From contig SCSX01000069.1 of NCBI GenBank assembly GCA_004297825.1, forward strand, positions 62,001 to 126,000: 64,000 bases of DNA. Reading direction: 5' to 3'. The notes beneath the pieces were generated by a model. The model saw nothing but the letters and a program-made list of their open reading frames with translations, did not search any database and was not told the DNA's origin. The stretch is from Spirochaetota bacterium (GTDB lineage Bacteria > Spirochaetota > UBA4802 > UBA5368). Shown here piece after piece: positions 61,086-63,996 of this stretch. How positions within the stretch are numbered: the stretch's first letter is position 1; every line of letters starts with the position of its first letter. A program made the position numbers and the translations under genes.

Positions 61086-61236
61086 GCGAATTCCGTGGAG
61101 TCCGATTCCCCGTTTTTAGGGTGGTGATTTCCCAGCGTCAACACAAATAGGTCGTCCGCACGGAATATTTATACATGCGAATGCGCGCACATGCGGACCC
61201 GGACCGGCCGTGATCTATGCGCCCGGATGTTTCCGG

Positions 61237-62751
61237 TCAGCGCTTTATCTTCCCCGGCAGGCGATACGAGTATTTTTTCCTGAGGATGGATTCCGTGATG
61301 AAGCGGTCGATCCGGCGGGCGAACTGGTAAAATTTCCAGATGAAGGCGTCCCCGGAATAGTACTTATCGACCTCCTCGCGGGTTATCGCGCCGCCCGTTA
61401 TGCCCAGTCTGTCTATGAACGCGTTCGCCATGGGAATGAAGTGCGGTATGAGCCCGGGCATTTGTTCCTTATGGAGGTTCGCGATGATGTCCACGATGAC
61501 GAGCCTGAGGTCGTAATAGCGATCGAGCACCTCCTGGAGGAAAAACCTGCGGACTACCCAGCGCAGGAACGAGGGCGTGGTCATGATGAACACCTCGGGA
61601 TTCATCTGCTCGCGGCCTTCCTTCCTGAACAGGGGCGTGCTGGTGTCGATGTAGAACATCCCGTCGCCCTCATGCACGTAGTTAAGCGCGCCGCCCTTCG
61701 AATCAAGCACCCAGTTCGAGAGCTGTCCGTCGATACCGATCCTCACCCCGCCGCCCCGGGCGTTGAAGGCAAACACCTTTTCGAGCTCCCTGAGCACCAT
61801 GAAAAACAGGCGTTTCGCGTTTTCCGTATCGAGCCTGCGAAGGAGAACGTGCGCGACGAAATCGGGATTGATGCGCGCCTGCCCCGCGTACACGGTGAGC
61901 GCGCCGGCGTAGTCGAAGCGCGAAAGCGCCTGCTCGGGGACCGCTATGCCCATGGCGACGAGCAGCGCGCGGTACTCGCGGTAGGCGGCGTCGTAGCGGT
62001 CGACCTCCTCACGGGACGGAAAGGGGGGCATGCGCTTCCATACCCATTTGCTCCCCTCCACCCGCTGGAGCTCGAAGCTGCGGTCGAGCACCCTTCCCTT
62101 CACCATGCTCATCACGGTCGAGATCTCGCCGTATCCCAGAATCGAAAGCTCGCCGCCCTCGCGGTAGTGTCCCCGGAAATCCTTCCGGAAACGCGCGTAA
62201 AGCGCCGTATCCTTCTGCAAGTTTTCCCGGATCACATCGAAGAGCTGTATCATTTCCCACAGCGTATCGATATCGGCTTTCGAGAGCACGAGCGCCTCCA
62301 TGTCGGTTCCGATACGGCCCATGGTGGGAAGGTAACGCTCCAGGTAGGGGATGCGGTCGCAGGCAAGCCTTTCCAATCGCTCCCCGGGACCAAAGAAGAG
62401 CTCGTAGAGATGATTCACCGAGGGAACGCTCGCGATTGTGGCGGAGAGAAAGTGGTTGAACCGGAGGCGGTCAATGGCGCACAACGCGCGATCCGCCTCC
62501 TGGATCGCCCCGGCCTCCTCTTTTTTCCCGAAGATCCCCGCAAGGATATCTATCGCGCCTTTAGACAGCGAGGGGTTCCGAAGCCGGTAGTCTTCGCCGT
62601 CCTTCCGCCACAGGAGATCGAACGAGTCCCTCATGCGGATAATCTCCGCGTTCACCGAGGCGCGCTTCATGAACGACAGGCGTTTCTTCTTAAACTTATG
62701 CGCGCGCTCGATCGCGTCGACGAGCGCGTGTATGTCCGTAAAGCGTTCCAT
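61237..62751 (-). CDS. Predicted kinase-fold protein of unknown function
   Basis: 504 residues, no signal or TM helices. I do not recognise a named family with certainty (DUF6206-like is possible), but kinase-fold landmarks can be read in order: a glycine loop LGYGEISTVM (205-214), a lysine in WVWKRM (239), a catalytic-loop-like IGIDGQLSN (D341, N346), and a metal-site-like FYIDTSTP (D369). This matches the HGDxxxxN...iDfe order of aminoglycoside-phosphotransferase/RIO-type kinases. The ~200-residue N-terminal part is helical. It starts three bases after the aminotransferase stop, so both work in one pathway. Confidence 0.5.
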   Translation of the reverse strand: MERFTDIHALVDAIERAHKFKKKRLSFMKRASVNAEIIRMRDSFDLLWRKDGEDYRLRNPSLSKGAIDILAGIFGKKEEAGAIQEADRALCAIDRLRFNHFLSATIASVPSVNHLYELFFGPGERLERLACDRIPYLERYLPTMGRIGTDMEALVLSKADIDTLWEMIQLFDVIRENLQKDTALYARFRKDFRGHYREGGELSILGYGEISTVMSMVKGRVLDRSFELQRVEGSKWVWKRMPPFPSREEVDRYDAAYREYRALLVAMGIAVPEQALSRFDYAGALTVYAGQARINPDFVAHVLLRRLDTENAKRLFFMVLRELEKVFAFNARGGGVRIGIDGQLSNWVLDSKGGALNYVHEGDGMFYIDTSTPLFRKEGREQMNPEVFIMTTPSFLRWVVRRFFLQEVLDRYYDLRLVIVDIIANLHKEQMPGLIPHFIPMANAFIDRLGITGGAITREEVDKYYSGDAFIWKFYQFARRIDRFITESILRKKYSYRLPGKIKR

Positions 62752-62754
62752 GGC

Positions 62755-63996
62755 CTACCCTCCCGTTCCCCGCACGAGCTCGACCAGGGAGTCCCGCACC
62801 GCGCGCACCAGGACGGCGATCTCCCTCCGCGTGATTATGAGCGGCGGAAGGAGCTGCAGCACCCTCCGGTCGTTGCCCGAGTATACCATGTACACGCCCC
62901 TGTCGAAGAGAAGCTTCAGCATGAACAGGGAGCGCATCTCGTCCGCGAATTCGAGCCCCAGCATGAGCCCCAGGCCCCGCACCCGGAAACCGGCCCCCGG
63001 GAATTCCTTCGCGAGGGCCCCCAGGCCGGCCCGGATCCGGTCCCCCGACGCGCGCACAGTGGAAAGAAATTTCTTTCCGGAGGAGATGCGTATCGCCTCC
63101 ATGGCCGCGAAGCACCCTGCCTCGCTCCCGCCAAAGGTGGAGATGTGCACGAAGGGGTCCTTCCTGAAGAAATCGCGGTGGCGTTCGTGGTAAATGGTCG
63201 CGCTCATGGGATAAATCCCGCCGCTCATTCCCTTTCCCGTCACCACGATGTCCGGCACGACGCGGAACTGCTCGAAGCACCAGAACGTCCCGGTGCGCCC
63301 GAACCCGGTCTGGACCTCGTCCATGACGAGAAGCGCCCCGGCGCGGGCGCACAGCGCCTTGACCTTACGGAAATAATCGCGTCCCGGGACCACGATCCCG
63401 AGCGTGGCGGGTATGGTTTCCATGATGACCGCCGCGGTCTGGTCGGACACCGCCGACTCGAGCGCGCCGATATCACCGAACGGCACCTGGAAGAAGCCCG
63501 GCGGCATGGGACCGAATTTTTCCCTGAACTTCGCATCCCCCGTCGCGAGGGCGAGCCCCGTGTGCCCGTGGTAACCCCCGAACGCCGAGATCACCCCCGG
63601 CCTGCCGGTCACGCCGCGCGCGAGCTTGATCGCGAGGTCGATCGCCTCACCGCCGCCCACCCCGAATACAACCTGGTTGAGCCCCGCGGGCAGCGTGCGC
63701 GCGAGCATCCGGGCCAGCATCGCCTTCGGTTCGCTCACGAGGTGGTGGTTCCCGATATCATACTCCGTCAGGGCGCGCGTCAGGGCGCGGATCACCCGCG
63801 GGTTACGATGTCCCAGGTTGAATACGCCCCCGTTGCAGTGGCAGTTCAGGTAGCGGGTCCCGTCCCGGTCGTAAATAAAGCAGCCCTCACGCCTGCCCGG
63901 GACCAGGAGCATGCCGTACTGCGCGTACACGTCCACCTTCCCCGGCGAGACGTGGTCGGCATAGAGACGAATAACCTCTTTTTTTGAAGGGCTCAC
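62755..63996 (-). CDS. Class III PLP-dependent aminotransferase, start at window edge
   Basis: 413 residues from a GTG four bases inside the right edge; an earlier start beyond the window is possible. Motifs: YLNCHCNGGVFNLGHRNPRVI, VFGVGGGEAIDLAIKLAR, SAFGGYHGHTGLALATG, LVMDEVQTGFGRTG and the PLP-lysine segment VTGKGMSGGIYPMSA. It belongs to the ornithine/4-aminobutyrate/acetylornithine group, but no feature fixes the substrate; GGGEA replaces the usual SGTEA/SGSEA. It is co-transcribed with the kinase-fold gene, which suggests an unexplored amino-compound pathway. Confidence 0.9.
   Translation of the reverse strand: MSPSKKEVIRLYADHVSPGKVDVYAQYGMLLVPGRREGCFIYDRDGTRYLNCHCNGGVFNLGHRNPRVIRALTRALTEYDIGNHHLVSEPKAMLARMLARTLPAGLNQVVFGVGGGEAIDLAIKLARGVTGRPGVISAFGGYHGHTGLALATGDAKFREKFGPMPPGFFQVPFGDIGALESAVSDQTAAVIMETIPATLGIVVPGRDYFRKVKALCARAGALLVMDEVQTGFGRTGTFWCFEQFRVVPDIVVTGKGMSGGIYPMSATIYHERHRDFFRKDPFVHISTFGGSEAGCFAAMEAIRISSGKKFLSTVRASGDRIRAGLGALAKEFPGAGFRVRGLGLMLGLEFADEMRSLFMLKLLFDRGVYMVYSGNDRRVLQLLPPLIITRREIAVLVRAVRDSLVELVRGTGG

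Follow-up and report, generated by a model that had tools for sequence, protein, structure and literature searches.

A DUF6206 protein with a predicted kinase fold and its PLP-dependent partner: a candidate kinase and lyase module of bacteria and archaea

What does a protein of no assigned function do when it is encoded, in bacteria and archaea alike, beside an enzyme that resembles an aminotransferase? The question is raised by two minus-strand genes at the right end of a 64,000-nucleotide stretch of a Spirochaetota genome (assembly GCA_004297825.1, contig SCSX01000069.1, positions 62,001 to 126,000), hereafter the window. One encodes a 504-residue protein, termed K, and the other a 413-residue class III enzyme dependent upon pyridoxal phosphate (PLP). 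A first-pass annotation, made from the letters of the DNA, had described K as a kinase candidate of unknown family and proposed that the pair might phosphorylate and transaminate an amino alcohol or aminosugar. As detailed below, the pairing is real and old, K belongs to the Pfam family DUF6206, and its C-terminal domain is predicted to adopt a protein-kinase-like fold. Both the pairing and the fold now stand on firmer ground than sequence alone could provide; the transaminase chemistry appears doubtful. We tentatively favor a two-step module, in which K would be a small-molecule kinase and its partner a PLP-dependent (phospho-)lyase acting upon the phosphorylated amine.

Conservation of the gene pair

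The open reading frames (ORFs) of both genes, their coordinates and strand, the length of K, and the three-base gap are all as that annotation had given them. In the list of features below, residue counts for K were taken over 102 aligned sequences, in which 8 genomes are present twice, with non-gap rows as denominators; those for the PLP enzyme were taken, likewise over non-gap rows, from the enzymes encoded beside K.

61237..62751, minus strand: K, DUF6206 protein with predicted kinase fold, 504 residues (ORF, PF19709, model and fold)
62182..62751, minus strand: N-terminal extension of K, mostly helical, residues 1-190 (secondary structure of the model)
62113..62136, minus strand: glycine loop GYGEISTV of K, residues 206-213 (G206 in 95/97 and G208 in 98/98 rows; between two strands in both models)
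62035..62037, minus strand: beta-3 lysine K239 of K (99/99; the position is uncovered in 3 truncated ORFs)
61714..61731, minus strand: catalytic-loop-like D341-GQLS-N346 of K (D341 101/102, N346 102/102)
61645..61647, minus strand: D369 of K, in YIDTSTP, equivalent to the metal-binding Asp (102/102)
62752..62754, minus strand: 3-base spacer between the K and PLP-enzyme genes (ORF listing)
62755..63996, minus strand: class III (fold-type I) PLP enzyme, 413 residues (PF00202, 2.4e-79; nearest PDB entry 4uox, putrescine aminotransferase)
63643..63657, minus strand: GGGEA of the PLP enzyme, residues 114-118, PLP-phosphate loop (aligned with PatA, GabT and ArgD)
63397..63420, minus strand: ETIPATLG of the PLP enzyme, residues 193-200, with T198 at the Glu position (alignment; transaminases have EPIQGEGG)
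63232..63234, minus strand: Schiff-base lysine K255 of the PLP enzyme (92/92)
62854..62856, minus strand: Q381 of the PLP enzyme, at the position of the carboxylate-binding Arg of transaminases (90/93)

The K gene lies downstream of the PLP-enzyme gene. Both are overlapped by a plus-strand ORF of 925 residues (61210-63987), and a first, length-weighted gene picker omitted the 504-residue gene here; a score based upon amino acid composition picked the two minus-strand genes over the plus-strand ORF. Since the conservation of both proteins settles the choice, the 925-residue ORF is taken as a shadow ORF.

K is single-copy in the genome of the window at E<=0.01. Among this genome and its relatives, K is encoded by 15 of 59 genomes at 16 places, and the PLP enzyme adjoins it at 15 of these, the sixteenth being interrupted by a contig end. 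Within the order (46 genomes), all PLP-enzyme matches of at least 60% identity occur in K-bearing genomes, with the next best match at 44%. Across the phylum, DUF6206 was detected in 20 of 296 genomes versus none of 14 control genomes, and the partner adjoins K at 6 of the 7 further loci that were inspected. The neighborhood search that the first-pass annotation had suggested for the pair, here a scan of GTDB species genomes in which the best 80 of 389 K relatives were examined, likewise found it to be conserved: a partner on the same strand and within 300 bases is encoded at 73 of the 80 loci, or at 66 of 72 after the removal of 8 duplicate genomes. The median spacer of these 66 pairs is 19 bases, and the PLP enzyme comes first in 57 of them and K in 9. 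The existence of two gene orders suggests that the link has been remade and not merely inherited. The bacteria concerned include Spirochaetes, Chloroflexi, Deltaproteobacteria, Bacteroidetes, Actinobacteria, KSB1 and others, while the archaea include Archaeoglobus as well as Loki-, Hod- and Heimdallarchaeota. Furthermore, the evolutionary distances of K and of the PLP enzyme are correlated across 85 pairs (r 0.77, with 0.23 as the best of 1000 permutations), which is accounted for in part by shared species history.

The seven unpaired GTDB loci are varied. One lies at a contig end (L062); three, all Asgard (L088, L108 and L128), have a PAT-type enzyme, as in the ETIPATLG motif, encoded elsewhere in the genome; one genome (L121) has a PVT-type enzyme of the same clade; another (L074) has only QGE- and SEA-type paralogues; and in the last (L124) no match to the PLP enzyme was found in the genome. 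Separately, the PLP-enzyme gene of one locus (L020, 7689-9108, genome G003) is present as two overlapping ORFs, so that the partner is probably disrupted there, whether through a frameshift or through misassembly.

Sequence family and predicted fold of K

K matches PF19709 (DUF6206) with an E value of 3.4e-19 and 69.5 bits versus a gathering cut-off of 30.4. Its description as a member of an unknown family therefore needs only slight amending in that K does belong to a Pfam family, but it holds in that Pfam assigns this family no function and NCBIfam returned no match to K at E<=1. Searches of PDB sequences with K yielded no useful kinase relative, and neither PF01636 nor PF01633 (APH and choline/ethanolamine kinases) matched it at E<=10. 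When the 53 sequences of the K-domain alignment were scanned against Pfam, DUF6206 was matched by all 53, no protein-kinase or APH family was found among the matches at E<=1, and the remaining matches were weak, with one member matching a diacylglycerol kinase domain at 0.13. A literature search found nothing on DUF6206 and, among the matches listed, no title or abstract naming a pair of K and the PLP enzyme.

The ordered kinase landmarks noticed in the first pass (in window numbering, G206-x-G208, K239, D341-x4-N346 and D369) are not a product of chance, as G208, K239, D341, N346 and D369 are near-invariant across the K family and the predicted fold is in agreement. D341 has a single exception, the lone DUF6206 gene L055 (8118-8960), which encodes His at the catalytic Asp and has lost the first glycine of the loop. 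This gene obtained the top Pfam score of the phylum search (163.8 bits), and its genome contains no match to the PLP-enzyme partner at E<=1e-60. It may represent a branch that has degenerated or that acts differently. Because the strongest DUF6206 match of that search thus stands alone and lacks the catalytic Asp, the paired, residue-complete K group may form a distinct subfamily within DUF6206.

Structure prediction, which had been set beforehand as a check of the kinase suggestion, yielded models of K with a kinase fold. The AlphaFold2 model of whole K has a mean predicted local distance difference test score (pLDDT) of 86.4 and a predicted template modeling score (pTM) of 0.64, and that of the 327 residues 178-504 alone, built from 53 aligned sequences, has a pLDDT of 87.8 and a pTM of 0.86. 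Foldseek matches listed for the whole-K model are nearly all kinases, and for the domain model 21 PDB chains matched at E<=0.001; the best 50 chains listed for it are all kinases by title. In VIA-align, all 50 rows listed for the domain are kinase-like by title, when the chains of KEOPS and pre-40S entries are counted as their kinases. The Z scores were 12.0 for a KEOPS chain, which we take to be Bud32, 11.8 for PRPK, 11.5 for the amicoumacin kinase AmiN, 11.2 for the microcompartment aminopropanol kinase 6ef6, 11.1 for APH(2''), 10.6 for Rio1, 10.0 for LicA and 8.9 for ethanolamine kinase, and 6ef6 was among the top fold matches (Z 11.1 and 11.2). The C-terminal domain of K is, as modeled, a protein-kinase-like fold. 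Since VIA-align rows within 1 Z are ties, the fold does not choose a kinase subfamily for K, and absence from the VIA-align lists was not taken to exclude any fold family.

The PLP enzyme and the reaction of the pair

The partner of K is a member of the class III aminotransferase family PF00202 (2.4e-79), and its closest PDB relative is the putrescine aminotransferase 4uox (232 bits); a profile search gave 304 bits for putrescine aminotransferase versus 196 for the ethanolamine-phosphate phospho-lyase ETNPPL (6tor). It falls below the curated cut-off of every one of the 25 NCBIfam matches listed (the best 25 of 73). The PLP residues are kept in the enzymes encoded beside K (K255 and D226, each 92/92). 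In class III transaminases of the 2-oxoglutarate type, a Glu, within QGE, and a carboxylate-binding Arg form the dual-substrate switch, and neither is present in the partner: upon alignment with E. coli PatA, GabT and ArgD, the EPIQGEGG of PatA is replaced by ETIPATLG and the Arg by Gln. T198 occurs in 92/92 enzymes beside K and Q381 in 90/93, the others having Ile (2) or Lys (1). After removal of duplicates and short sequences, and with the inclusion of the three Asgard enzymes that do not adjoin K, PAT is present in 86/86 enzymes, and position 381 is Q in 80, K in 4 and I in 2. PatA, GabT and ArgD keep both residues. Among 17 comparators, Glu is kept in 14 and Arg in 12; those lacking both are L169, a member of the PbfA lyase family (T, T), un_L165 (N, V) and the PVT variant (T, I) from the Anaerolineales genome of L121, which also encodes K. 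Two further comparators (E, I), each the second enzyme of a tandem pair, have no PLP lysine. In the genome of the window, a 44%-identical paralogue keeps both QGEGG and Arg, and this genome has no second K. The PLP-enzyme tree places all 86 PAT-motif enzymes plus one variant in a single clade, with a support of only 0.285, so that their monophyly is weak.

It is the loss of Glu (T198) and Arg (mostly Q381) from the partner that leads us to prefer a kinase with a lyase over a kinase with a transaminase, and the PbfA-family lyase L169, having lost the same two residues, supports this. Under the kinase and lyase scheme, K would be an ATP-dependent kinase whose substrate, a small compound with an amino group, is phosphorylated at its hydroxyl. 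The phosphorylated amine would then be bound by the PLP enzyme as an aldimine with Lys255, after which phosphate and then ammonia would be eliminated to yield an aldehyde or ketone, as with ethanolamine-phosphate phospho-lyase. Such an elimination would need no 2-oxoglutarate half-reaction, and the Glu/Arg switch would hence have been lost. In some lineages, an amidase of the N-terminal-nucleophile type from the same gene run would first free the amine from an amide. ATP use, the transfer of phosphate to an amino alcohol, the elimination, the amidase step and the substrate are all points that we infer, and our best guess for the substrate is an amino alcohol, perhaps released from an amide.

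Precedents exist for modules of this type. Ethanolamine kinase feeds the PLP phospho-lyase ETNPPL (PMC4564198), which is a class III enzyme (PMC8154272), and hydroxylysine kinase and 5-phosphohydroxylysine phospho-lyase are, to judge from a cited title, a second such pair. Like the ETNPPL module, the pair described here links a kinase candidate with a class III PLP enzyme, in this case by gene adjacency and in both orders; unlike it, K has no sequence match to the APH and choline kinases, and 6tor is distant from its partner. The RMM/Aut microcompartment cluster is described as encoding an APH-type phosphotransferase together with an aminotransferase (PMC6620236, PMC4207490). The likeness here extends to the fold, as the (S)-1-amino-2-propanol kinase 6ef6 is a top match of K, but the phosphotransferase of that cluster is assigned to the APH family PF01636 (PMC6620236), to which K does not belong. 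PbfA, described with phosphonate genes, is a class III enzyme whose key residues are altered and which proved to be a lyase (PMC8154272). Its family member L169 (NF049939, 689.8 bits versus a cut-off of 525) lacks the same Glu and Arg, whereas the window enzyme, at 221.5 bits, lies well below that cut-off. PatA, the best PDB match of the partner, has the fold and PLP residues in common with it, but differs in the two switch positions, and the window enzyme, at 267 bits, falls short of the PatA cut-off of 612. None of the 296 genomes of the phylum exceeded the cut-off of NF004799, presumably a family of fusions between a kinase and a PLP enzyme. K is a new family of predicted kinase fold in an already known type of two-enzyme module.

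Several observations weigh against the kinase and lyase scheme. Both K models have comparatively low confidence around the glycine loop, the whole-K model had no PDB chain at E<=0.001 in Foldseek, the Foldseek values of the domain are modest (best E 1.7e-4, TM 0.3-0.4), and the helix-C region (245-263) has no invariant Glu (E249 65/102, E259 67/102). PRPK and the KEOPS chain score as high as the small-molecule kinases. On the side of the PLP enzyme, the lost Glu and Arg also fit an aminomutase, a racemase or a transaminase that uses a different acceptor; un_L165, which is outside the group, lost both residues though it is not known as a lyase. Among the 53 neighbors that were scanned, neither an aldehyde dehydrogenase nor any other downstream gene regularly accompanies the pair, and the glycerate kinases that are encoded near some pairs are not explained by the scheme. 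Lastly, the authors of the microcompartment study propose a transaminase and not a lyase for the comparable enzyme (PMC6620236).

A true transaminase beside K is the alternative closest to the original suggestion. Such an enzyme would convert an aldehyde into an amine, or the reverse, with an amino donor or acceptor that is not 2-oxoglutarate/glutamate, and K would phosphorylate either the resulting amine or the precursor alcohol. It would agree with the intact PLP lysine and Asp of the partner and with its nearest characterized relatives, such as putrescine aminotransferase, being transaminases, as class III enzymes mostly are (PMC8154272), and also with the published reading of the microcompartment pair as transaminase plus phosphotransferase (PMC6620236). 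We nonetheless regard it as unlikely, given that both switch side chains are gone from the paired enzymes, whereas most comparators keep them. The proposal that the pair phosphorylates and transaminates is thus supported in part, its second half having been weakened by Glu giving way to Thr198 and Arg to Gln381, and for the partner transamination is no likelier than a lyase reaction or some other non-standard PLP chemistry. Aminomutases, racemases and decarboxylases also proceed without a second oxo-acid half-reaction, and the racemases 9wrf and 9wqz as well as isoleucine 2-epimerase are among the PDB matches of the partner; that the enzyme performs one of these reactions upon an amino compound phosphorylated by K is nevertheless improbable, as it reached no curated cut-off among the NCBIfam matches listed.

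The alternatives that concern K itself would leave it outside of metabolism or change its chemistry. PRPK and Bud32 act on proteins or as ATPases, and their high fold scores, with that of Rio1 (Z 12.0-10.6), could suggest that K is a protein kinase or an ATP-dependent regulator of the PLP enzyme or of another protein; K is also rarely without its partner, which is missing next door in only 7 of 80 loci. However, the APH-type small-molecule kinases tie with these scores (AmiN 11.5, aminopropanol kinase 11.2, APH(2'') 11.1), and in three Asgard genomes the PAT-type enzyme is encoded elsewhere, which leaves a regulatory role for K improbable as well. Kinase-like folds with AMPylation or pseudokinase roles also exist, and L055, lacking both the catalytic Asp and a partner match, could be viewed as such a case; as Lys, Asp, Asn and the second Asp are kept in all other sequences where covered, a different nucleotidyl chemistry or a scaffold function for K is very improbable.

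In its widest form, the kinase and lyase scheme proposes that DUF6206 kinases and a dedicated, non-transaminase class III PLP lyase, joined in some lineages by an amidase of the N-terminal-nucleophile type, constitute an undescribed route that frees, phosphorylates and deaminates an amino alcohol in many bacterial phyla and in archaea, including Asgard. This wider proposal is rather doubtful. More generally, the findings give DUF6206, a domain of unknown function, a predicted kinase fold that can be tested and a partner that can be named; the family occurs in Archaeoglobus, in Asgard archaea and in numerous lineages of uncultured bacteria. They also single out a group of proteins that match the class III aminotransferase family but do not have the side chains of transaminases, and that may hence be misnamed.

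Neighboring genes, forms of K and related loci

Past the right edge of the window, the next picked gene lies approximately 310 bases off and runs in the opposite direction, which makes the pair the probable start of a transcription unit. On the same strand, K is followed by a 298-residue gene (151 bases away) and then by a glycerophosphodiesterase-like gene. Neighbors were surveyed as 106 same-strand genes, reduced to 74 at one per sequence cluster, of which 51 were scanned along with two genes of the window contig; the C69 gene was excluded from the scan, as were most repeats within exact clusters. No Pfam family was found in more than 2 of these 53 neighbors, and operon context was consequently rejected as a guide to the substrate.

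The only neighbor that recurs across distant lineages is a C69-like gene, presumably a secernin, which lies within the same gene run in 14 of the 15 distinct loci carrying one. One scanned protein matched Peptidase_C69 at 1.6e-11, and MCDT occurs at or near the called start in 16/16 C69-like loci, after 11-12 residues in L021, L069 and L137. In five Chloroflexi/Dehalococcoidia loci (L085, L090, L092, L107 and L134; L085 was scanned), a penicillin-amidase cluster precedes the pair. An amino compound would suit as substrate, since the C69-like and penicillin-amidase proteins would free an amine from an amide. Two further neighbors were rejected as parts of the module because they look like lineage synteny: a gene resembling glycerophosphodiesterases, near K in 3 genomes of the family to which the window belongs, and one resembling aldehyde dehydrogenases, named by eye, near K in one genus. 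Other neighbors include metK and/or ahcY, which adjoin the pair in L097, L106 and L138, all Chloroflexi/Dehalococcoidia (metK of L097 and ahcY of L106 were scanned). Glycerate kinases are represented by a MOFRL cluster, downstream of K in L102, L132 and L137 and also near the pair in L059, and by a Gly_kinase-family member in L061 (7415-8530; the MOFRL gene of L132 and that of L061 were scanned). An HpaB-family cluster, presumably akin to 4-hydroxybutyryl-CoA dehydratase, lies near the pair in L085, L092, L103, L107 and L116 (Dehalococcoidia/Chloroflexi; L085 scanned), and in L033 (1600-4616) an acyl-CoA dehydrogenase and an APH-family kinase (PF01636, 1.4e-54) are encoded upstream of a pair with short K.

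The usual K is approximately 320 residues in length, with 62 of 72 K ORFs from non-duplicate GTDB loci having 360 or fewer, and this short form has no N-terminal extension. Of 149 genomes of the phylum, the extension was detected in 10, all of which belong to the window's order, and always at a K locus. A Pfam scan of whole K returned no match to the N-terminal domain. Longer K ORFs of 414-477 residues also occur at L070-L073, L075 and L076; two of these showed little likeness to the window extension upon alignment (18% and 14%).

The GGGEA motif of the PLP enzyme, which the first-pass annotation had singled out as unusual, is an ordinary PLP-phosphate loop. It aligns with SGTES of PatA, TGSEA of GabT and SGTEA of ArgD from E. 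coli, and its first G varies within the subfamily (G 47/93, S 42/93), which ruled it out as a sign of odd chemistry. Elsewhere in the window's order, class III PLP enzymes occur in tandem (L144, 1277-3845; L145, 5497-8159), with more tandem matches in the same search, and the second members of these two have Glu in place of the PLP lysine (GEALGAG and GESLGAG), which suggests heterodimers of a catalytic and a non-catalytic chain. In addition, the genome of the window encodes one cassette twice (L142, 4704-7855; L143, 6599-9606), consisting of a class III PLP enzyme, a protein of approximately 120 residues and one of approximately 460 residues that, by eye, resembles a membrane protein.

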